From contig NC_049993.1 in the NCBI RefSeq assembly GCF_000003815.2, positions 6,200,706 to 6,264,705 on the forward strand: a stretch of 64,000 nt of DNA, given 5' to 3'. Source of the stretch: Branchiostoma floridae. Its lineage: Eukaryota; Chordata; Leptocardii; Amphioxiformes; Branchiostomatidae. Shown piece by piece: positions 24,703 to 64,000 of this stretch (position 1 is the stretch's first letter; every line of letters begins with the position of its first letter). Position numbers and translations under genes: made by a program. Below the pieces are notes generated by a model. The model was not told where the DNA came from. It was given only the letters and a program-made list of their open reading frames with translations, and made no database searches.

Positions 24703-27700
24703 TCATCTCCTCAGCCTGAGGAAGAAGGCGTGTTTGCACTCCGTGCTGTCCTCGGGGTAGTACTTGTCATAGAAGTCAAGGGCAAACTCCTCGACCTTGA
24801 AGCCAAACTTCTGGTACAGCATCATGGCGGGGTTAGTGGCGGAGACGTGCAAGGTCACGTCCTTCCCCATACAGGTCTGCAAGGTCAAGGACAAAAGTCA
24901 TTTTATTTTAATGTTTGACAAGGATCAGGAAAGAAGCATCTAAATGGTAGATACCAACTAATTACATCACGGCCATTGTCAAAAATCTAGGATTTGTATA
25001 AAATTCTGAAAATCCAAACCATTTCCCATTTGCTCCATTGTAAATAGAATGGCATAATTGCATCATCCATTATGGCATAAATCGGACATTGGAGTAAAAT
25101 ATCGCCAGGTCACATTGCATGCTGACCCAGAAATACATGTTTGTGATAGAAAACAATCTTTTACATGTACTTGTAAGTCCCACAACTCAATAAATAGAAC
25201 CTTGTACAAAATAAAGTATGATAATAAACACTACCCAAAATGATGGGAGATTAAGACAAAAAAAGACAGAGCTTGATCTACAAAAATTTCTTGTAAAGAT
25301 TAGACCTCGTCATTGTCGTGTGTAATGAAATTAATATGTAATTTACTTGCTGTAGCCTAACCTGTATGAGGTGGTACATCATGTGTCTAACCTGTATGAG
25401 GTGGTACATCAGGTGTCTAACCTGTATGAGGTGGTACATCATGTGTCTAACCTGTATGAGGTGGTACATCATGTGTCTAACCTGTATGAGGTGGTACATC
25501 ATGTGCCTAACCTGTATGAGGTGGTACATCATGTGTCTAACCTGTACGAGGTGGTACATCATGTGTCTAACCTGTATGAGGTGGTACATCATGTGTCTAA
25601 CCTGTACGAGGTGGTACATCATGTGTCTAACCTGTATGAGATGGTACATCATGAAGGTTCCGATTCCCGCCTGTCTCCACTCCGGGTGGACCAGAACAAA
25701 CGACACGTATGCCTCGTTGATTTTGACGTCGGGTACGAGGAAGGAGAAGCCAATCACCACCTGCCTGCAGTAGAGAAAAAGTTGAAACATGAAACCTCTG
25801 CTGTGTTGAAGATAAGATGTCTTATATTTGTTTGTTTATTTGTTTGTTTATCAAACTTAACCATCACAATGGAGGAGGAGTCAGAACAGGTGATTTTTCA
25901 CCTCTGCATGTTGCCTCCCCTTCAAATTTCTACTCCACTACTGGCTGAAATAGAGTTTATGTCTACTAGGAAGGCTACAAGTCTGGGTAGTAAAGAACGT
26001 TCTTAGATCGCGACAGTTTCACGTCCACACCTGCGGGCGAGCACGGTTGTTCGACGTCGAATAGCGACGTTTGCGCTCGTTCCGTAGGTGTGGCGTTCGA
26101 ACGCGTTTGCACACTTGAATAAAGTGGAGTTGAGTATAAGCATTCAAAGCGGCTGGTCGTGTCTTCTTTTGTTGTCCGTCTGTCGAGCTCTCAACCCTCC
26201 TAAACCCGCTGCAATGGACCACCATCCTACATTCCCTACATTTATTCCCTACAGTTTATTTCCTGGGATGTCCCTGTAGCTCAACGGGTATCAACCTAAT
26301 AGTTGAGCCCCTTGTTCAAATCTGTCAGTTTCTGGGAGAGCTCAGTTCAAATCTAGGGATGAGCATCTCTGTGACGGCTGCATCTGTCTTTCTGAAGGTG
26401 TTAAGTTCGAGGAGGCGCCTCAAGTACATAAAAGGGGAAGGGCTACCAACTCTCCATGTAAAAATATACCCTGCTACAACAACAGCAAGGAAACATGCTC
26501 ACCTACCGGGTATGTACCACTAGGCAATACAAGGTTTACAACAACAACAGCTTCGAAGGATTGCTTAGATTCATAATGTACTTACTTGTACAGCACCACC
26601 ACACTGAAGTCTGGGTACTGCAGGCATTCAGACACTGAGAGGGAAAACAGATCAAAGTACATCGGATGTTGACAGCAAGTAATGATTAGAATAAGGCCAT
26701 ACAAAATGAATCAACAAAGTGACAAAGCTATTGATGACGGCAAAAATTAGCAGCAACAACAGCATTCAAAGTTTTGACTTGGGGAGGAAAAATGGCCTTA
26801 TGAACGTATGATGTGAGCACTATGTAATATCATAATAGTTTAACCATTATAAGGTTTACTGGCAGTCTTGCAGGTGATATAAGCTATTGTAGTAGTACAT
26901 TGTAGTTTGAGCCACTCACAGTCGATGCCAGGCCAGAAGTACTGTCTGCACAGGGCGTTGACTGTTGGGATGTGCTGTGGACGGACGTAGCAGTAGTCTA
27001 TGGGTGCGGGAGGGGGAGCTATCCACGTGGGGTCATTCCTGTAAGGACCAAAAAGAGACAAGAGATAACATTTGTAGATTAAAAGTGGTCCTGAGGACAG
27101 AGAAAAAAAGCATGATGTTATAGATGCTTCATCAATAGTTATTATGATTGCATTTGCTTTATAATTATACATCACAGAAAACACACTTAACATTTGAGCA
27201 AAGTAATCCTGATAAACCAAGGACCACTACTCTTTTCAATAAGTGCGGTGGGTTCCTGAACATGCTTGAGGTGTGGCTCTCCTCAAACACCTCCATTTAA
27301 CGTCCTATTAGGGGGACCGTCCTAACTGCACCTAGGTACTCATTTTCACCTGAGTGAAGCAAGGAAAGCCGTGTTAAGTGCCTTTCCCAAGGATACAAGA
27401 TCAGTGGCACATCAATGGATTTGAACCCAGAACAAACATTTGACCATATGATTTCATAAATATTTAGAATGAAAGCTGTACCTGTGTGGATAGGCCTGTA
27501 TCTCCATGAGAAGTTTGAGTTTGAGTGGTCTGCTCTCATAGTCACGCCTGATGTAGGGTTTCAGTACTCTGTTGGAACAGAATCATACATGTCAAGAGCG
27601 AGAAAACCAGACATAAAAAAATGTAGTTTCACTACAACACATGCCTACAATATAATGTAACCCGTGATTCTTCTGATTTGTCACTATTATAATAATGGGC

Positions 27701-30700
27701 CCCCTCCCCACTCACCTGGCAGTGCAAGTAAGGACAGATGATACTCTGTAACCCTGTGATCTTTTAGCCTGGTATCCAGCTGTGTTGTTAGCCTGGTATA
27801 CAGCCGTATGATGCAAAAGACTCGGGAGCTATAATAATATTATAGCTCCCGAGTCTTTTGCATTTGAAGAGAGGACAGATGAGACTCAGGAGCTATAAAA
27901 CATGGCTGGATACCAGGCTACTTATTCTTCTTATTTTGTCACTAAAAATGCACCCCCCTCCCCTCTCACCTGGCAGTGGAAGGACTGATGATACTCTGCA
28001 GCCCTGTCTGTTCCCTACTCACCTGGCAGTGTAAGGACTGATGATGCTCTGCAGCCCTGTCTGTTCCCTACTCACCTGGCAGTGTAAGGACTGATGAAAC
28101 TCTGCAGCCCTGTCTGTTCCCTACTCACCTGGCAGTGTAAGGACTGATGAAACTCTGCAGCCCTGTCTGTTCCCTACTCACCTGGCAGTGTAAGGACTGA
28201 TGATACTCTGCAGCCCTGTCTGTTCCCTACTCACCTGGCAGTGTAAGGACTGATGATACTCTGCAGCCCTGTCTGTTCCCTACTCACCTGGCAGTGTAAG
28301 GACTGATAATACTCTGCAGCCCTGTCTGTTCCCTACTCACCTGGCAGTGTAAGGACTGATGATACTCTGCAGCCCTGTCTGTTCCCTACTCACCTGGCAG
28401 TGTAAGGACTGATGAAACTCTGCAGCCCTGTCTGTTCCCTACTCACCTGGCAGTGTAAGGACTGATGAAACTCTGCAGCCCTGTCTGTTCCCTACTCACC
28501 TGGCAGTGTAAGGACTGATGATACTCTGCAGCCCTGTCTGTTCCCTACTCACCTGGCAGTGGAAGGACTGATGATACTCTGCAGCCCTGTCTGTTCCCTA
28601 CTCACCTGGCAGTGTAAGGACTGATAATACTCTGCAGCCCTGTCTGTTCCCTACTCACCTGGCAGTGTAAGGACTGATGATGCTCTGCAGCCCTGTCTGT
28701 TCCCTACTCACCTGGCAGTGTAAGGACTGATGATGCTCTGCAGCCCTGTCTGTTCCCTACTCACCTGGCAGTGTAAGAACTGATAATACTCTGCAGCCCT
28801 GTCTGTTCCCTACTCACCTGGCAGTGTAAGGACTGATAATACTCTGCAGCCCTGTCTGTTCCCTACTCACCTGGCAGTGTAAGGACTGATAATACTCTGC
28901 AGCCCTGTCTGTTCCCTACTCACCTGGCAGTGTAAGGACTGATGATGCTCTGCAGCCCTGTCTGTTCCCTACTCACCTAGCAGTGTAAGGACTGATGATA
29001 CTCTGCAGCCCTGTCTGTTCCCTACTCACCTGGCAGTGTAAGGACTGATGATGCTCTGCAGCCCTGTCTGTTCCCTACTCACCTAGCAGTGTAAGGACTG
29101 ATGATACTCTGCAGCCCTGTCTGTTCCCTACTCACCTGGCAGTGTAAGGACTGATGATACTCTGCAGCCCTGTCTGTTCCCTACTCACCTGGCAGTGTAA
29201 GGACTGATGATGCTGCAGCCCTGTCTGTTCCCTACTCACCTGGCAGTGTAAGGACTGATGATGCTCTGCAGCCCTGTCTGTTCCCTACTCACCTGGCAGT
29301 GTAAGGACTGATGATACTCTGCAGCCCTGTCTGTTCCCTACTCACCTGGCAGTGTAAGGACTGATGATACTCTGCAGCNNNNNNNNNNNNNNNNNNNNNN
29401 NNNNNNNNNNNNNNNNNNNNNNNNNNNNNNNNNNNNNNNNNNNNNNNNNNNNNNNNNNNNNNNNNNNNNNNNNNNNNNCAGTGTAAGGACTGATGATGCT
29501 CTGCAGCCCTGTCTGTTCCCTACTCACCTGGCAGTGTAAGGACTGATGATGCTCTGCAGCCCTGTCTGTTCCCTACTCACCTGGCAGTGTAAGAACTGAT
29601 AATACTCTGCAGCCCTGTCTGTTCCCTACTCACCTGGCAGTGTAAGGACTGATAATACTCTGCAGCCCTGTCTGTTCCCTACTCACCTGGCAGTGTAAGG
29701 ACTGATAATACTCTGCAGCCCTGTCTGTTCCCTACTCACCTGGCAGTGTAAGGACTGATGATGCTCTGCAGCCCTGTCTGTTCCCTACTCACCTAGCAGT
29801 GTAAGGACTGATGATACTCTGCAGCCCTGTCTGTTCCCTACTCACCTGGCAGTGTAAGGACTGATGATGCTCTGCAGCCCTGTCTGTTCCCTACTCACCT
29901 AGCAGTGTAAGGACTGATGATACTCTGCAGCCCTGTCTGTTCCCTACTCACCTGGCAGTGTAAGGACTGATGATACTCTGCAGCCCTGTCTGTTCCCTAC
30001 TCACCTGGCAGTGTAAGGACTGATGATGCTGCAGCCCTGTCTGTTCCCTACTCACCTGGCAGTGTAAGGACTGATGATGCTCTGCAGCCCTGTCTGTTCC
30101 CTACTCACCTGGCAGTGTAAGGACTGATGATACTCTGCAGCCCTGTCTGTTCCCTACTCACCTGGCAGTGTAAGGACTGATGATACTCTGCAGCCCTGTC
30201 TGTTCCCTACTCACCTGGCAGTGTAAGGACTGATGATGCTCTGCAGCCCTGTCTGTTCCCTACTCACCTGGCAGTGTAAGGACTGATGATACTCTGCAGC
30301 CCTGTCTGTTCCCTACTCACCTGGCAGTGTAAGGACTGATGATACTCTGCAGCCCTGTCTGTTCGTCCGTCCCCACCAGCCTGTTCAGGAAGGTGCGTGG
30401 CTGCTGCCCCTGTGCCTTCACCGTGTGCGCCCGGCTCTGGAACCGGTCCAGGATGCGGAAGTCGCCGGCCGACCTTGAGACGAGCCCCTGCAGCCTGGAC
30501 GGACTGAAGGGTTCCGGCCAAGCGTTGTCGGTCGCGGTTGCTGTCCCCGTTGCCTCTTGGATACTCGCTGCCACCGCAGCGTCAATGTCAAACAGGGGCA
30601 GTCCTCTCTCTCTCTTCATCTGTTGTGGAGTGAGGGAGTGTTTTATATCACTGGAACAGTCAAATGTTCTGACTTCCAGCAATCATATATGTACAGGGGA

Positions 30701-42701: not shown

Positions 42702-42837
42702 TGTGTAGCAAGGAACTACTTCTGCGCTGGGGTATTCTGCAAAGATCTCCAGCACTGTAGAGTCACGTCTTCAGGATGGACGTCCTCATGGGACATTAAA
42801 TCACCACTGGCATGAACAGCAAGGGAATATAGATGCA
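42702..42837 (+). other. SYK: SYK 5' UTR portion of first coding exon
   Basis: TTTTTCATCTTTCAG ending at 42701 is a strong acceptor, so at least one non-coding exon lies upstream, probably between 40.2 and 42.6 kb. One candidate is GC-richer sequence at 40250-40347 ending in GAAGAG/GTAGGG, but this is not proven. The 136-nt leader has short upstream ATGs. Confidence 0.5.
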
Positions 42838-45800
42838 ATGGCAGAGCCTGCAATCAACCCAGAAAACGTGCAATACTTCCACGGACTGATCTCACGCGAG
42901 GAGGCAGAGAAGAGCCTGACGGATGCCGGTTGCAGCGAGGGATTGTACCTCCTACGGGAGAGCACGACCACATCCAACACGTACGCGCTCTCGCTCTGCC
43001 ACCGGAACAAAGTCTACCATTATGCAATCACCCGGAACCAGCACGGGATGTACTCCATCGAGGACGGGAAGAAGTTTCCTGGCCCGGTAGAACTCGTGCG
43101 TTACCACGAGATCGAGCAGAACGGTCTCCTGTCGTGCTGCAAGATCCCGTGCATCCGTCCGCCCGGCCAGCCCCCGAAGATGGGATGCAGGACCATGGTA
43201 CAGCAGAATTTGGAAGGCTTAGCTAGGGATGTCCTGGGTCTCCAGGTGATTAAGTGTCAGCTGAAACTTCCGAGAAGTTCAGGAATAAGAGGGGGACTGA
43301 AACATATTAACTGAAACATATTCAACATTTGCAAGAAAATGCAGGACATTTCCCTCCATGATAAAGAAAGGAGTAGCTAAGGATAAGCATATTGATAAAA
43401 TCATGCATAACATGGAAGAAACCTGGAGGGAATTATTGTCTATTACCACTGCAATAATCTTTTTCAGCTTCAAGCTGCAATAGGTACAGAAAATTCAACA
43501 ATGTCACATACTAGAGGGCCCAAAATCTATCTTGACCTTTGTCTTACCAACACCCTTCTACATAACCAAAGATTATTGTAATCCATCCAGAGGTTGTTGC
43601 TGGTATGCTGACTACAAAAATCCAGAAACAGACAGACAGAAACACAGACACATCCAAAACTATATCCATTTTTCATTGAGATAATCACCAGTCTTGTCTT
43701 TACAGAGTACCAAGCTGGAGGACGACTTAACCGGCAGTCAGAAGCTGCACATAGAGGAGAAGGTGCTGAAGATCTACCACCTGCAGCCGGACTGCTACTG
43801 GTTCCACAGGTGCATCTCCCGCGATGAGGCTGAGAGACGACTGCTGAAGGCAGGGCCATTCGATGGCAAGTTTCTGTAAGTATACAAGGCCACGCCAACT
43901 GATTTCCTTGGTTATCGGATTTTTAAAGATAAAAATGTAGCAAGTGGACATCATAAAAGCGTAGGGCAGGGAGGAAAACTTGAATGTAACTGTATTCACT
44001 ACATAAAACTGAGTGCACCAAGGCTTGAACCTGGTCCTGTGGCTTTGTTTTCATAAATTTTTTTTTCCAGTTTAGCATATTTTAAATTTAAAAAAAAATC
44101 TAAGAACCAATAAATTAATTGGTATGGCCCAAGCTAAAGGTGAAAAATATCTGTATCAGATTATTTTGTGTCAATTTTGTGTATCATACCCGGGCTATAC
44201 TTATGTGCAATATTGGTTTTCTGATCAGTCTTTATTTTTCAGTATGGCCCGGAGATTCAAACGAGTGAAACTCACTTATATGTGCTGCTGTCAAAAATTC
44301 TACTGCAATTTGGCATGGAATGGCATGGTTTATTTCTTTTAAACAATCAGTTACCAATTCCTCCTTGCCTTACAGCATACGAGAGAGAGACGAGCCCGGC
44401 ACCTTTGCCATTGGTCTGTGCTACGGCAAGGCCATGTACCACTACAGGATCGACAGGAACTCAGACAACTCACTGTCCATCAAGGATGGCAGGAGGTTCG
44501 GCAGCCTGGTGGAGGTAAGGGAACTACTGCCTAATTATAAGGCTACACTAAACACATTTCCAACTACAGTCAAACCTGTATTAGGGGCCACCTCTACAGA
44601 GGGGCCACCTGTCCATAGTGGCCACTTTTTGTCGGTCCCTTGGGTATTTCATCTACAAGTTGCCACCTCTATACAGAGGCCACCTGTCTATAGTGGCCAT
44701 ATTTGTCCGGTCCCTTGAGTGGCCACTATAGACAGGTTTGACTGTAAAACCAGAAATTCTACATACACCCATATGTGGACTTCATCAGGCTTTTAGGTAG
44801 GATCTTATTATAGGGAGTCCAAATTTCTTGGTGAGTCATTGTAAGTGTAGGGGGTCCGGGGGCATCCACCTTCCATGGTGCAGAGTTTTTGAGAATTTTG
44901 AGAAGAAAAAAGGTCTATTCTAAGGTATCCTGAAGAGCAAAAATACTGAAGTAGGAGTAGAAGACTGTGACCATGCATACATGATCATGTGGCATCCATG
45001 GTCAATCAGAATTTCATGCTTGTCAGAGGATCTGCTCTTCAGTGTAAGGGTATTTAGTGTGTCCAATCTCTTGTTATTTTAAGAAAAGCTTGTCCAGATG
45101 ACACCATGAGTCTAATGTTGACACATGCCTGGCTAAAAGTAGGGATTACATATATGTAACCAGTATGCTAACCTGTGTAGTTGTTTTACAGATGGTATAT
45201 CACTACAGTAAGAAGGCTGATGGTTTGTTCTGCCCTTTGGATGAGATATGCCCCAGACCGGGCATCCCTGAACACCTCAGAGGTAAGCAAGTTATATTTT
45301 AAAACATACTGCTTTAGATTGAACCTGTAGTGATTGAAGGAAATGTATCACAAAATTGCTTCCCTGTGCAATCAGTGGCTGCTGCAATATGTAGTATATC
45401 TACTCCTGTCCATGGGAACTTTAATAATTCATGCTTTGTCTGCTCATGTCCATATTTTAGTCTCACTCTAACCTTCTTCCTGTTGTGAAGTCATCCATAA
45501 AGATAGTATTGTGTTTGTTAAAGTTAAGTCAGCATGGAGACGGTTAAGCATATAAATCATTGCTGAAGTAACACAGATCTAAGAAGGAGAAAATAATGAA
45601 CTGAAAGTTGATTTTTTGGGCCTATTTCATGAGTCTACAAAAACATCTTGCTATTGAGTTCTACCAACCAACAAACAAACAATCAGATTTATTCATTGTG
45701 TTTGTGTGTGTGTGTGTGATAGTATTCATTGCCCATTATACTTTGCAGACATTTTCCCCACCATGTACATTTTGCAGTCTGTGAGTGTCATCATGTTCCT

Positions 45801-48800
45801 CTACCCTAGGTGTGAAGCTGACGGTTGACTTCAAACCCCCTGCGCTGGACAGGAAACTGCCAGAGCCCCCCCTCCCCCAGCGACCAGACAGCCTCTCTCC
45901 GAACAGACCCCCTGCTCTCCCAATCAACCCCCCTGGCCGCACCCCCAGTCAGCGTAAAACGAGCTTACAGACCCCCGCCCACCCTGCACAGGTATGACTT
46001 AAGTTTCATGCTGTAGTGAGTAAATAAATGTACAGCTACAGGTATTAGTTTTATTTCAGGCTGATGTTTATGCATTTCATGTTAACGCTTGTTCCCCTTT
46101 ATATGCAGGGTAACCTATATCTGTTGTATTCAAAGCTATTTAGGGATATCAAGTCAAAGGACGGTGGTTTCAAACTGCAATATTTAACTGTCCCTTGACT
46201 TGAATTTTCTTTATCCTTAGATGCCCATTTTGAATACAGTAGATACAGATTAACCCATGAACACAGTTGAACAAGCATTTCAGAGTTTTGTATTAAATCT
46301 ATATTTTGCTGAAACTTATATATGAATGTTCATTTCCTTTATACATATGAAGTAGATAACAAGTAAGCTATGAGAAGCCAACTGATCAGCGTACATTGTG
46401 TAAGCTCATGAATGGATCATTCTGATATTTAATTTAGACACGTTGACAGTTAGGTAACTTGCTCATAACTTTCTCCTGCTGTTTTCTTGTGTGTGTGTTA
46501 CGATCAACAATCTGGTTTGCTCCTTCAGAAGTGGATGCAGAAGCGACGCAGTACCGAACCAGTACTGATGGGGCTGTTTGGGAATCATGTAGGATTATTT
46601 AAGTTTGCACTGCCAGCTGTAGAGGTGGGGCACTGTAAGGCCTTCATGCACTGGCTTAGGTTGCTATGTGTTTTGTTTTGGCAATACTCCTTTTCTGCTG
46701 AGGTAGCAACTGTTGAACAACCAAAACTCTCGTTTTTAGTAGTTCAAATAACGAGAGGATATTTTAAGGCTTAGCTTGGTTTTCTTTGCTTTAAATTTCA
46801 AAGTAATTTCAAACCATGCAGAAATATGCTTTACATCATGGGTCATATTCTAACAATTAAGTCCTAGGTCATATCCAACTTTGGTCACTCAGTGGTACAT
46901 GTATAGTTTATCATCTGTTCAACAGTTGCCATATAGTGAAAAGAGGGCCTTGTTAGATTATAGGTGGCCTGCTTGGATCTGTGACATAAATACTGGAATG
47001 TGAGACATCAGTAAGGTTATGCATTGGTTCAGAACTGGTGATTGCCTTTGTGCTGTGTGAAGGACTGCTACATAATTTACTAACTCAGTACTAAACATAC
47101 ATTTGTCTCCATCTGAGTCACAAGCATTTCATTTCAGTGTGTGGAGACTACTGCATACGGGAATGGTGGCAATAGATGGGTGCTACCTGTAGCTACCTGG
47201 TGCATTTTAATATGTCTATGGATTTGAATTTTCATGATGAAAATAAGGCACCTCTGCAATGCATGATAGTGACAGCATTGACTATCAATTATATTGTGAT
47301 ACATTGTGATCAATTATTTTATTCTGTGTAGTTGCTTGTGAAAAAATGTTTTGAAATGTTTCTCAGTCGGTAAGATCAGTGCATGTTAGTGTTTGTAAGT
47401 ACATGTTTAATGTTGTAATGCTAGTTCACCGTTATCTGTGGGGTAACCTATATCTACTGTATTTAAAACAGTTTATTTAGGCAGGCTCATGTAGGAATAT
47501 TAAGTTGATGGACACTTTGCAAATAACTGCTATATTTTGAAAATATTGAAATCTAAAACCACAGTCCATTGACTTGATATCCTTAAATACCCTGTTTTTA
47601 AAACCAATGGCTATAGGCTACCCTGTGGATAAAGGTGAACTTAAGTGTTAATTTGGCAAATTGAAAGAATCTTTTTAACATATTGCCTATAAAATTGTGT
47701 TTGGCTAGTCATAGACTATCAAAATAAAGGAATTAGTAGAAGTGTACAACCTACAGATATAAAGATAGTGTAATGTGTGGCCTACAGATGTAAGAATAAG
47801 TGCAGAAAGTAACAAAAGTATCTACTCTTTTTACAGGATGGACCTCAGGGTGGGAACAGGCCCAGGAGCCCCTTGCTGCCCCCCTCCCCTCGAGGCCTGC
47901 ATAGTCCCAGGTCCCCTGTGTCCCCCATGGCCCAGCCTGGAATGTCTTTGAACAGCTCTGCCATCACTAACTCCATCTGGGATGAGAGTGACCCAGGTGA
48001 GCTATATAATGACGATTGTATACTCTTAACAACTGAAAACTTCTAAGTTTAAAGCTTCCATCTCATGTGAAGGACCATACCACTAAAAAAAAGGCTTATT
48101 AGCTATGCCTAAAGTTTTGTACCGGATGACAAGTCAGTAATTTATGTTGGAAAATATGGATTTAAAGGTGCTTAATTTTTTTCCATATCTCAGTTGTTTG
48201 AAGCTCGATTCCTAGAATCCCAGCCCAGACATTGAAGTGTTCTTGAGAAAGGCACTCGAACAACTTCTGTCACTCCACCCAGGTGTAAAAATTAGTACCT
48301 GGCTTTGGTTGGCGAAGTAAAAAGGTTGAAGGAGAAGGATGGCTTCTGCCTTTCACTACTGAGTTGCAGACTTCAAAGTCAGTGGCCTAAAAAAGGTTAT
48401 GTCAGACTAATGTTACATTTTTATAGAACACTGTTCTTTTTTTTTAACCTGTATAGCGGACCAGCTCCCCCCAGTGCCACAGAACTGGGTGTACAAGAAG
48501 GACACCCCCCCTATGGAAGCCATGGGCTGGGAGAGTCCCTACAGTGATGTCACACTACGGGAGGGGAGGAAACTGGAGTTAGACCCCTCACGGCTACAGC
48601 TCAAAGAGAAACTGGGTTTGTCAGCTCATAAGTTTTTTATTCATTTTTTTACATGCATCTTGTTTGATTAGGTAGGGTGATTTTCAGTTTTGCATGATTA
48701 GAAATGTTAGGTTTTGGATATTACTTGTAGATAAGCATGATAGGTTAATCATATACAGTAATAATGGTGTGACCCTCCTTTTGAGAACAATAGCTTTAAT

Positions 48801-51800
48801 GATAAGTCCCAGTCATTGTGACAAATGTAATTCATTTCTAACTCCAGAAAAACAGTGCAGTGAGACGTCTCTGAAGAAAGTGTTCTACACGAAAGTAAAG
48901 CATTTTGTGGTACTTTAAGTTTTGTGTTCATGTGTTGTTGTTGTTGTTTTGTTTAGGTGCTGGGAACTTTGGCTCAGTACTGAGTGGGACGTACCAGCTG
49001 GGGAGGAAGACCATAGAGGTGGCCGTCAAGACGCTGAAGACAGAACAAGTACCCAACGAGGAGGTAAGGCTACTATAGAACTGTCCTGTCCCTTCCAATT
49101 TTCCAATTCCTTCCAAGTGTCCAATTTTCCTCCATCTTAATTTTGACTAGAGCCTTTCTTTAAAAACCTTGAGTGTTTGAATGGACTGCATAGTACAAAG
49201 ATATTTAACAGAGAGACCTAAGAAGTGAAACGAACGCAAAAACAAACAGTGTCACTCGCCTGACTGTATGTGGCTTTCTTGCAGTCAATGATCTTGAAAT
49301 ACCACACATAAACACTGCTTGCATCAAGCAGCCTATGCAGATTCCTTCATATGGAGATTGAGTGTTGTTGATAATCAACATGAGTGTTGTTTACTAGTAT
49401 TCTTGATTACCTGTTGTTATTTACAGCCTGAGATTCTGAAGGAAGCCAACATGATGAAGGACCTTGACCACCCCCACATCGTGCGGATGATTGGCGTGTG
49501 CCACGGGGAGACCATCATGCTCGTGTTGGAGCTGGCTCCACTTGGGCCGCTCAACAAGTACCTGAAGAAGAACGCGTGAGTGTTGTCTGGATGGTTAGGA
49601 ACAGCACGGGCAGTGTCTGTCTTTATATCAATTTGTCAGGGACCTCTGCGGTAGTGCAATGTCTAATCCACTGCATGAAGTACTGTACACTTCTACTACT
49701 ACTAGCGCCTGTGCATACAGTATCTTGTTGTTGTTTGTCAAAATACATTGCATACAACTTAGATTCAGGGCTGTCTCCAGCTTTCATTTTTGTAGTCTCA
49801 CTCATTGTTTAGGAGCTCATCTTGTTAATTTGCTATGTTAAATCTGTCATTTCAAGCCTAGAAAAATAAATTTTCGTCAATTTGCGTCAAGTTTGGATTT
49901 TGGGGAGGGACTGATTGATTTTTCAACAAGCAAATTTAGGGGATGGAAAAGACGGGTCCTGGAGACAACCCTGCTTTAAGATGAACAATATGCATGAAAA
50001 CTATTTATTTATTTATTATGAAAGCCATAGATGACAGATAGATTACCATTTCATATGCAAACATGACCTTACATGCTAACATTCCAGTGATGTGCTATTT
50101 TTGTGTACATGCTGAAAAGGGTACTCTCCAAGCAGAGGTTAGGCTCCGGCTGTTTTTTAAACGTTTTTTAGTCGTTTTTATCAGGCTTTCTATTTTGTAT
50201 TTTAACTTCCTGTGTCAAAACCTGTGTTTGACTGGCGTACTTCAAGAAAAATGACAAAATAGAAAGCCCAATAAAAACGACTAAAAAAAACGTTAAAAAA
50301 ACAGCCGGAGCCTAACCTCTGCTTGGAGAGTAGAAAAGGGTGCAAGCTCAATTCTCTGTTGCCCGGTTCCGGTAGCTCTGTGCGTCCGGAGAGAATAGTG
50401 GACCTGATGACGCAGGTGGCTGAGGGGATGGCGTACTTGGAGAGTAAGAACTTTGTCCATCGTGACCTCGCTGCCCGTAACATCCTGCTGGTCAGCGAAC
50501 TCTTTGCCAAGATCTCCGACTTTGGCATGTCCAAGGCCCTTGGACTTGGAAGTGACTACTACAAGGTACATTCAGAACAGTCTTTGTCCTGTCTGATTGA
50601 ATAGATAGAAATTTCTGATAATCTTAATTGGAAATGTACACGCAATAGAAGCAAATCAATTCTTAACTGTCTTTAGGCAGACCTTTGCATCCCACATTTT
50701 CTTATGACTTTATTCAGATTGCAACAGACAATATGTCCTTAAGAGTAAAATAAGACCCTTTTAAAAAGTTTTATGCCCCTTTTTTTTATTTTAGAAAATT
50801 GATGTGAATGCTCCCCCCCCCCATGTTTACATTACACAATATCATATCTTTCATGATTGTATACAATGATGTCACTTTCAGACGGACACTGCCGGCAAGT
50901 GGCCTCTGAAGTGGTACGCCCCAGAGTGCATCTACTACTACAAGTTCAGCAGTAAAGCAGACGTGTGGAGCTATGGGGTGACACTGTGGGAGGCCTTTAG
51001 TAATGGCAGGAAGCCCTATGCTGTAAGTGCACAAGTCTGAATTGCAAAACTTATAAAATGACAAAAGGATTAAACATACCAGTTCTTTGTTAGAACAAGC
51101 AGTTTTTGCTGTTGTCTGTTGTTCATTGGGGACTTTTGTTTGCATCTTGTAACTGCTTGGTGAACTGCCTTAAGGTGGAGAGGTGGAGCACATCAGTTTG
51201 GTAAGATAAAGTACAAATTTTGTATGACCAAACTGATACAAATCTAGGTTTCATCCCATCACAGCAGGAATGGTCCATTCTCTTATCGATAAGTGTGATA
51301 GGTTTTGAATGTACCAGAAATATTGTTAACCTCAAACACTGCTGTGTAGGTTAAATAAAATCCGTTTGTGTTTTGTGCAGGGCATGAAGGGGCAGGACAT
51401 CCTGACATGGATCGAGAGTGACCGGCGTCTGGACCGCCCTCCCACCTGTTCCGAGGAGGTGTACGCTGTCATGAGGTCCTGCTGGCAGTACAAGTAAGGC
51501 CAGAACATTCCACTTTCATCTCATGGGGAGGTCATGTCATCACTGACATCTTGTACCGACTATAGTTTATTTCTTGGGTGTGTGTGGGGAGGGGGGTACT
51601 GAAGTGTGTGGTTTGACTGTAAACACAATAACTCAAATGGAAGAGGTTATTATATTTTACAGCTTCCTTTTAATTGGAACTTAGTTTCAAAGTACAAATT
51701 GCATGCCGAAGAATCATATGGGCTATGTTTTCTCATATTGCAGTAGATTGCTATCACTAGTTCACATTAATCCGTTGGGTAACCTAAATCTGTTGTTTTC

Positions 51801-52260
51801 AAAGACAGGGTATTTAGGGATGTGAATGGACACTGGTTTTGTATGCACTATTTTCAAAATATTGCAGTTTGAAACCACTGCTGACTGTCAACTATCCCTA
51901 TATACACTGTTTTCAAAACAATGAAAATAGGTAACCTTGCAGATAAAGGCAAACCAGCATTACAGAGGGACATGCATTTTACCTTTTTTGACCTTTCTTT
52001 GAAAAAATGAATTCTAAAAAAAGGTAAAACATCAATGATAATTATAAATTGTTTATTGATTGCAGTTCCATTAATCTCCAATGATCATGCAGAGATACAA
52101 AAACTTAAGGATTTCATTGCTTAATTTCATCTATCTATGTTCCAGAGCCAAAGATCGACCAACATTTGCGGAATTGTCAGCCACCATGAAGGACCTTCAG
52201 TACCAAGTACAGCAGGGTACCATACTGGCAGGGCTGGAGCCAGGGGAATCCAGCTTGTAA
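42838..52260 (+). CDS. SYK: SYK-family non-receptor tyrosine kinase (SH2-SH2-kinase), complete
   Basis: Exons: 42838-43245, 43706-43875, 44376-44514, 45192-45282, 45810-45991, (candidate cassette 46529-46588), 47837-47996, 48457-48615, 48957-49063, 49427-49575, 50376-50565, 50882-51022, 51381-51493, 52146-52260. Without the cassette the CDS is 2124 nt (707 aa plus TAA); human SYK is 635 aa. Domains: N-SH2 about residues 12-105, C-SH2 about 160-260, linker about 265-430, kinase about 435-690. The family couples ITAM-bearing receptors to downstream signalling by binding doubly phosphorylated ITAMs through both SH2 domains. The start ATG is in an exon whose acceptor ends at 42701. An out-of-frame ATG at 42833 overlaps it and may lower initiation. 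One gene here stands for the vertebrate SYK/ZAP70 pair; SYK is the better match ([16 protein letters not shown]). Confidence 0.94.
44567..44744. mobile_element. TA-flanked MITE, CAGTCAAACCTGT family
   Basis: Perfect inverted ends CAGTCAAACCTG/CAGGTTTGACTG flanked by TA (44565-44566, 44745-44746). The interior has two imperfect copies of a GGCCACCTGTC-x-TAGTGGCCA block. It lies in a SYK intron. Confidence 0.75.
44786..45139. mobile_element. hAT-type MITE in SYK intron (copy of 3499-3848)
   Basis: Starts CAGGCTTTTAGG and ends CCTGGCTAAAAG. The interior is the reverse complement of the DOT1L intronic copy, including GGGGGCATCCACCTTCCATG. Confidence 0.65.
45810..48615 (+). other. SYK: SYK interdomain B linker exons
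   Basis: Exons 45810-45991, 47837-47996 and 48457-48615 encode a Pro/Ser-rich linker longer than the vertebrate one. It contains PEPPLPQRP (possible SH3 ligand) and, in the last of the three exons, WESPYSD at about 48530-48550. The latter corresponds to the ESPYADPEE region of vertebrate SYK whose tyrosines recruit PLC-gamma and Vav; one tyrosine is kept in that segment here, with another upstream in NWVYKKD. Confidence 0.8.
46529..46588 (+). other. SYK: Candidate SYK cassette exon in the linker (20 codons)
   Basis: A TCTGGTTTGCTCCTTCAG acceptor (ending 46528) and a GT donor (AATCAT/GTAGGA, 46589) bound 60 nt that are open in the required phase 0 and encode a basic segment ([10 protein letters not shown]...). 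Flanking exons meet in phase 0 with or without it, so it can be skipped without a frameshift. No transcript evidence is available; the donor is only moderate. Confidence 0.4.
48457..52260 (+). other. SYK: SYK tyrosine kinase domain exons
   Basis: The glycine loop GAGNFGSV begins at the junction of exons 48457-48615 and 48957-49063, followed by VAVKTL (ATP-binding lysine). Exon 49427-49575 encodes the alphaC helix with its Glu (EILKEANMM) and the hinge region. Exon 50376-50565 has the catalytic loop HRDLAARN, the DFG motif and the activation-loop tandem tyrosines SDYYK. Exon 50882-51022 has [12 protein letters not shown] and [13 protein letters not shown]. All catalytic residues are intact. 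The C-terminal tail is about 20 residues longer than I would expect for vertebrate SYK. Confidence 0.93.
50122..50332. mobile_element. Foldback MITE with perfect 8-bp target duplication
   Basis: Arms begin TACTCTCCAAGCAGAGGTTA and continue as inverted repeats over about 80 nt (one internal GGCTCCGGCTG/CAGCCGGAGCC block). GAAAAGGG flanks both ends (50114-50121, 50333-50340). The element inserted 43 nt before the acceptor of SYK exon 50376-50565. Confidence 0.9.
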
Positions 52261-57444: not shown

Positions 57445-58190
57445 ATATACCTCGCATGTTGCGAGGTATATCCAAGGACCGTGGATTGATGAACTCCACA
57501 GCTGTGGAGTTCATCACTATGTTGATGAAATCCACAGCTGTGGATTTCATCGGTAGAATGATGATGAACTCCACAGCTGTGGATTTCATCGATATGTAGT
57601 GATGAAATCCACGGGCATTCCGCCGCTAATACTGACATTTGGCTGTGGACTTCATCAGTATGTAGTGATGAAATCCACGGGCATTTCGCCGCTAATACTG
57701 ACATTTGGCTGTGGACTTCATCAGTATGTAATGATGAAATCCACGGGCATTCCGCCGCTAATACTGACATTTGGCTGTGGACTTCATCAGTATGTAGTGA
57801 TGAAATCCACGGGCATTCTGTCGCTAATACTGATATTTGGCTGTGGACTTCATCAGTATGTAGTGATGAAATCCACGGGCATTCCGCCGCTAATACTGAC
57901 ATTTGGCTGTGGACTTCATCAGTATGTAGTGATGAAATCCACGGGCATTCTGTCGCTAATACTGATATTTGGCTGTGGACTTCATCAGTATGTAGTGATG
58001 AAATCCACGGGCATTCTGTCGCTAATACTGACATTTGGCTGTGGACTTCATCTGTATGTAGTGATGAAATCCACGGGCATTCTGCCACTAATATTGACAT
58101 TTGGTTGGCTGTGGATTTCATCAATATGATAGGGGTGAAATCCACGGGCATTCCGTCGCTAATACTGACATTTGGCTGTGGATAGTAAAA
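57445..58190. repeat. Hairpin island: palindromes plus 66-bp stem-loop minisatellite
   Basis: A hairpin with 12-bp arms and a 3-nt loop (57445-57471), then three 28-bp palindromes of type GATGAAATCCAC-AG-CTGTGG-x (57488-57515, 57524-57551, 57563-57590). Eight 66-bp units follow from 57601 to about 58134, and then a partial ninth. Every unit contains GATGAAATCCAC near its start and GTGGACTTCATC near its end, so each can form its own stem-loop with a loop of about 32 nt. Open frames on both strands result from the 66-bp period. Confidence 0.9.
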
Positions 58191-63170: not shown

Positions 63171-63174
63171 AATA

Positions 63175-64000
63175 CGAATGAAGGCTCACCTGGGGGATAA
63201 CCGCTAACCGCTAAGCGAACCCTTCGGTAACCGCAAAAAAGCGACCCCTTACGATCGGACTTCCGAAATTTCATACATAATGTGCGTTACTTTCAACACT
63301 TGAATATCAAAGTAAAACCCGTGGGCAAAAGGTAAAAAGTGATTTGAGTACCCAAAATTACTTTGTAACTTTTCTACATACGAATGAAGGCTCACCTGGG
63401 GGATAACCGCTAACCGCTAAGCGAACCCTTCGGTAACCGCAAAAAAGCGACCCCTTACGATCGGACTTCCGAAATTTCAAACATAATGTGCGTTACTTTC
63501 AACACTTGAATATCAAAGTAAAACCCGTGGGCAAAAGGTAAAAAGTGATTTGAGTACCCAAAATTACTTTGTAACTTTTCTACATACGAATGAAGGCTCA
63601 CCTGGGGGATAACCGCTAACCGCTAAGCGAACCCTTCGGTAACCGCAAAAAAGCGACCCCTTACGATCGGACTTCCGAAATTTCATACATAATGTGCGTT
63701 ACTTTGAACACTTGAATATCAAAGTAAAACCCGTGGGCAAAAGGTAAAAAGTGATTTGAGTACCCAAAATTACTTTGTATTTTTTCTACATACGAATGAA
63801 GGCTCACCTGGGGGATAACCGCTAACCGCTAAGCGAACCCTTCGGTAACCGCAAAAAAGCGACCCCTTAGTCGGACTTCCGAAATTTCAAAGAAAATGTG
63901 CGTTACTTTCAACACTTGAATATCAAAGTAAAACCCGTGGGCAAAAGGTAAAAAGTGATTTGAGTACCCAAAATTACTTTGTAACTTTTCTACATACGAA
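63175..64000 (+). repeat. 206-bp satellite, four copies, continuing past the window
   Basis: Units start with CGAATGAAGGCTCACCTGGG at 63175, 63381, 63587 and 63793, and a fifth begins at 63997. Spacing is 206, 206, 206 and 204 bp. Units are nearly identical (a few substitutions and one small deletion in unit 4), suggesting recent amplification. The interior has GATAACCGCTAACCGCTAAG and GCAAAAGGTAAAAAGTG. Confidence 0.95.

Follow-up and report, generated by a model that had tools for sequence, protein, structure and literature searches.

A donor-bearing 30-bp minisatellite across an exon-intron junction of an amphioxus KAT14-like gene: a probable mirage with a presumed preference for its first donor

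The original paper on the mirage minisatellites of amphioxus Adh is reportedly that of Canestro (2002). The name is given in amphioxus to arrays that span splice junctions, and the units described in two papers, in the sections concerned with them, measure 10-72 bp in Adh3, 150-160 bp in the globin genes and 60 and 108 bp in PGBD5 (PMC3087553, PMC3902484). The globin cases are BflGb6 and BflGb9 (PMC3087553). As far as these sections go, regular splicing appears to be undisturbed, as suggested by Adh3 data and globin RT-PCR (PMC3087553), while splicing at the PGBD5 repeats is without cDNA support and the Adh and TnC mirages are said to yield no aberrant mRNA (PMC3902484). The first of these papers also states that mirage copies could serve as cryptic splice sites, reports variation in array length, with somatic instability for Adh3, and contains the proposal that mirages give rise to new introns (PMC3087553, relevant sections). 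Tandem repeats are mentioned for amphioxus huntingtin scaffolds in passages from which the word 'mirage' is absent (PMC2206037). A literature search with KAT14 among its terms returned no paper, and among the titles listed we recognised no further mirage paper and none naming a KAT14-like gene, most subscription journals lying outside the search.

The array described here lies on the minus strand of a 64-kb window of Branchiostoma floridae DNA (the whole stretch of 64,000 nucleotides that was analysed), whose repeat class, gene content and GC content of 41% point to a lancelet; the host gene we take to be KAT14 from its likeness to the human protein. Six exons of this gene were set by hand (Table 1), and when joined they read through without interruption for 286 residues up to the stop; the limits that the initial annotation gave for the last two exons are consistent with splice consensus and frame. 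The product contains a GNAT domain (PF00583, E 2.8e-11; PF13508, E 3.6e-10), and the 286-residue piece has no PDB match at E 1e-5. The junction that carries the array falls between YHLIQ and TCMGKD. It had been placed directly after the acetyl-CoA loop, but nine residues (TFMMYHLIQ) separate it from RQAGIG.

Table 1. Positions of the exons and arrays of the KAT14-like gene in the window (the slash in a motif marks the splice junction)
Feature	Positions	Strand	Remark
Upstream exon, bearing the 53-bp donor array	30321..30619	-	set by hand
53-bp-unit junction array, CAG/GTGAGT (a few TAG/GTGAGT)	27961..30364	-	broken by 100 N at 29379-29478
Single 53-bp unit, diverged, plus ~39 nt of the flanking sequence downstream	27677..27757	-	sequence alignment
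Exon	27482..27568	-	set by hand
Exon	26920..27038	-	set by hand
Exon	26586..26634	-	set by hand
Exon with GNAT loop RQAGIG, then TFMMYHLIQ	25632..25764	-	set by hand; ends at first donor
Array of ten 30-bp units with ten CAG/GTTAG donors	25353..25652	-	unit 1 includes last 21 nt of exon
Remaining intron from the 30-bp array to the last exon	24877..25352	-	
Terminal coding exon (TCMGKDVTLHV...FFLRLRR, stop)	24703..24876	-	set by hand

The array consists of ten consecutive units by unit-by-unit comparison with the consensus, and TRF agrees (25357-25653, period 30, 9.9 copies, 96% matches, score 559); with such a score and such identity over 9.9 copies, it is no chance repeat. As the initial annotation had stated, each unit combines 21 nt of exon-like sequence (ATGATGTACCACCTCATACAG) with 9 nt of intron-like sequence (GTTAGACAC). 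The tandem unit spans the exon-intron boundary, which was set by splice consensus and frame, and unit 1 is made up of the final 21 nt of exon 25764-25632 and the initial 9 nt of the intron. The donor CAG/GTTAG is present in 10 of 10 units, the last exon-like base ahead of each being 25632, 25602 and so on to 25362. The consensus is matched exactly by units 3, 6, 7 and 8, and missed by one base in units 1, 2, 4, 5 and 9 and by three in unit 10, which merges into unique intron sequence; the 30 bases beyond it are 21 off consensus. Unit 1 alone has CAT instead of CAC. The edge units appear to escape homogenisation, like those of the globin mirages in the account of PMC3087553 that deals with them. 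The junction has phase 0 and no in-frame stop occurs across the array, in keeping with the earlier description. The decamer that a downstream donor would insert is VRHMMYHLIQ, with V replacing I in units 2 and 4 and L replacing M in unit 9, a refinement of the 10 residues first given as HMMYHLIQVR. The array, its position, its donors and its frame are established here.

The 30-bp array had correctly been called the second in one gene; the other, with a 53-bp unit, has an N-gap within it, and the sequences on either side repeat exactly, 30194-29479 being identical to 29378-28663 over 716 bp. On both sides of the gap, 14 unit variants occur in the same order, with the end units cut. The simplest and most likely reading is that the 716-bp duplicate represents two overlapping contig ends left unmerged; it may also be a true duplication. 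The array is probably over-counted in the assembly, and about 30 units would remain once the overlap is collapsed. This apparent inflation next door is a reason to ask whether mis-assembly also made or enlarged the 30-bp array. We regard this as very unlikely, because that array is just 300 bp long and without N, and its unit variants are scattered, no single block having been copied.

Further down the intron of the 53-bp array, a diverged copy of the unit is accompanied by flanking sequence (89% identity in an ungapped stretch of 28 nt; identity in 67 of the 111 columns of the alignment when gaps and ends are counted), from which it follows that the junction at 30321 was probably duplicated more than once. 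Inverted repeats lie between this copy and the array (arms 27811-27836/27838-27863 and 27765-27786/27899-27920). In a pattern search, 43 of 43 downstream donor copies, a count in which the copies duplicated at the gap and the diverged one at 27716 are included, lead to a stop right after SPYTAR, at residue 101 of the translated piece. Since every downstream donor found gives a stop, the first donor must be picked often enough at this junction for the gene to function. The stop pattern is the strongest case within the window for first-donor use, as an argument and not a measurement.

We consider it highly probable that the 30-bp array is a new mirage minisatellite that is spliced mainly at its first donor. 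It is a real, well-formed addition to a known repeat class, which the initial annotation had overlooked. According to this scenario, a 30-bp segment straddling the exon-intron boundary by accident would have been duplicated in tandem. Ordinary minisatellite turnover, presumably slippage or unequal exchange, would then have lengthened the array and kept its units alike. The spliceosome would take mainly the first donor, and the nine extra copies would leave with the intron, the protein being unchanged. The array would be near neutral, and its length probably differs between alleles. We infer that a preference for the first donor would most likely come from its being transcribed earliest and from the context of a complete exon upstream of it.

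Within the window, overlap of arrays with junctions is not significant and the one test with a low P was framed post hoc; the assignment to the mirages therefore rests on architecture and published examples. Seven strong arrays were defined as the TRF rows, among 24, that score 230 or more, hand-merged and with one row of score 153 included. Two of the seven overlap a hand-placed junction, no more than chance (P about 0.5 under random placement), and a general enrichment of arrays at junctions was rejected. In two of the seven, a donor falls within the first unit, which speaks for the mirage reading (P about 0.014 under random placement, in that post hoc test). Close copies within 3 kb were found for 2 of 39 junctions, compared with 97 of 996 random gene-region positions, controls that include the arrays themselves; 18 of the 20 donors and all 19 acceptors lack a same-strand copy within 3 kb at a match of at least 20 of 24 bases. 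The hand-placed set of junctions omits several SYK-like exon borders as well as a weak donor close to 31573.

The window also contains, at 42709-52260 on the plus strand, a gene that encodes two SH2-like segments and, at the C-terminus, a tyrosine-kinase-like part, and that from its ORFs we take to be SYK/ZAP70-like; a check of 10 of its donors and 9 of its acceptors found no close copies. A 206-bp array of about four copies (63172-64000) has CAGGTGAG sites on the minus strand and runs off the window end. In a 66-bp array (57487-58182) several frames are open, since 66 is divisible by three.

The initial annotation had proposed a length-variable protein segment at the 30-bp array. If donors 2 to 10 were appreciably used, KAT14 would gain from 0 to 9 further VRHMMYHLIQ decamers, inserted beyond the nine residues that come after the acetyl-CoA loop. 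The frame arithmetic of this proposal is sound: all nine downstream donors keep the frame, add 10 to 90 residues in multiples of ten and reach the normal stop, for a translated part of 286 to 376 residues, and the ten donors are nearly equal in predicted strength. We nevertheless find it improbable. A unit divisible by three with three stop-free intron codons is likely enough by chance, and the sister array in the same gene, with its 53-bp unit, ignores frame. The insert would land inside the GNAT domain. With the first-donor join the GNAT match is unbroken (Acetyltransf_7, 39.9 bits), whereas with all nine decamers inserted Acetyltransf_7 scores 33.3 bits, a loss of 6.6, and covers the N-terminal half of the domain only, the C-terminal half being matched by FR47 only. 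Three NAA50 alignments, among 10 PDB matches, have only 4 extra residues at the junction point. An amphipathic helix was considered for the repeat peptide, whose hydrophobic moment is 0.05 at 100 degrees, 0.26 at 108 and 0.16 at 160. Appreciable use of downstream donors thus finds no support in the published mirages, the Adh and TnC cases included as far as they are described (PMC3902484), in the 43 stops of the 53-bp array or in the unbroken GNAT match. Less probable still is the extended form of the proposal, in which the donor minisatellite would give a histone acetyltransferase a catalytic domain of variable length, enlarged by n x 10 residues and differing between animals and, via somatic instability, between cells.

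The predicted properties of the donors bear on the mirage reading in both directions. Predicted U1 pairing in the 30-bp array is -7.1 kcal/mol at eight donors and -7.6 at units 5 and 10, and that of the 53-bp-array donor CAG/GTGAGT is -13.8 kcal/mol, in a list of 20 gene donors of which one is doubtful and one a base off. Because donor 1 of the 30-bp array has no advantage in predicted pairing, its preferential use is less certain. Of two equal donors, the intron-proximal one is often favoured, which also counts against first-donor use. In six folding windows, donor 1 ranked 2, 2, 5, 2, 1 and 4 among the ten in predicted accessibility; its position in the upper half in all six, and at the top in one, would weakly favour first-donor use. 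When the consensus base was introduced into unit 1 in silico, the accessibility of donor 1 went down in 5 of 6 windows and up in 1. Donors 1 to 6 of the 53-bp array were similar in two of three folding windows and donor 1 was ahead in the third, and the lack of a clear lead over the next five weakens the first-donor reading. Masking of donors by RNA structure was rejected as the likely explanation: predicted folding resembled that of shuffles (z -0.41 for array folding; -0.78 for the 30-bp-array piece; -0.49 for the 53-bp-array piece), and the modelled accessibility effect is too weak and too dependent on the folding window. No feature that we examined clearly accounts for a preference for the first donor.

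A further scenario is recursive or intra-array splicing, in which the AG/GT of every unit would allow pieces of the array to be removed stepwise, the same donor being re-formed each time. Each 30-bp unit does contain CAG/GT. At the 53-bp unit (30321 and downstream, minus strand), TCCTTACACTGCCAG/GTGAGT is a motif that we take to resemble a recursive splice site, and its AG has an acceptor score of 5.9, a value that falls among those of the genuine acceptors placed by hand in the window. Acceptor scores of the ten AGs in the 30-bp array run from -0.2 to 2.8, whereas the 19 genuine acceptors have a median of 7.2 (4 of 19 at 2.3 or less), and the acceptor score of the second unit is equalled by about 13% of all minus-strand AGs. 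With acceptors this weak, recursive splicing inside the 30-bp array was rejected as the main explanation and is retained as a minor and extremely unlikely rival.

With ten and about thirty near-identical donors at two of its junctions, the KAT14-like gene offers a natural test of spliceosome choice among equal sites. Of the donors in the 53-bp array, the first alone would give the full protein, and at the 30-bp array the frame is kept by every donor. If message decay concealed splicing errors at the former, such errors would still show at the latter.

Finally, we compare the 30-bp array with other known systems. Ordinary intronic minisatellites are homogenised head-to-tail arrays that are probably variable in length, and the 30-bp array is alike in these respects; it differs in that its unit contains exon sequence and a functional donor. 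In DOK7 intron 4, two donors of unequal predicted strength lie 11 nt apart and alternative use is shown, according to the part of the report that concerns them (PMC5585400). The 30-bp array similarly puts several donors at one exon end, but these are ten near-identical predicted sites spaced 30 nt apart. The amphioxus mirages of Adh3, the globins and PGBD5 are the closest parallel, with a junction-spanning unit and a repeated splice signal in common, and PGBD5, like the KAT14-like gene, has two arrays. The 30-bp array departs from these mirages in residing in a different gene, and in having a stop-free unit that is divisible by three at a phase 0 junction, such that in-frame read-through is possible.
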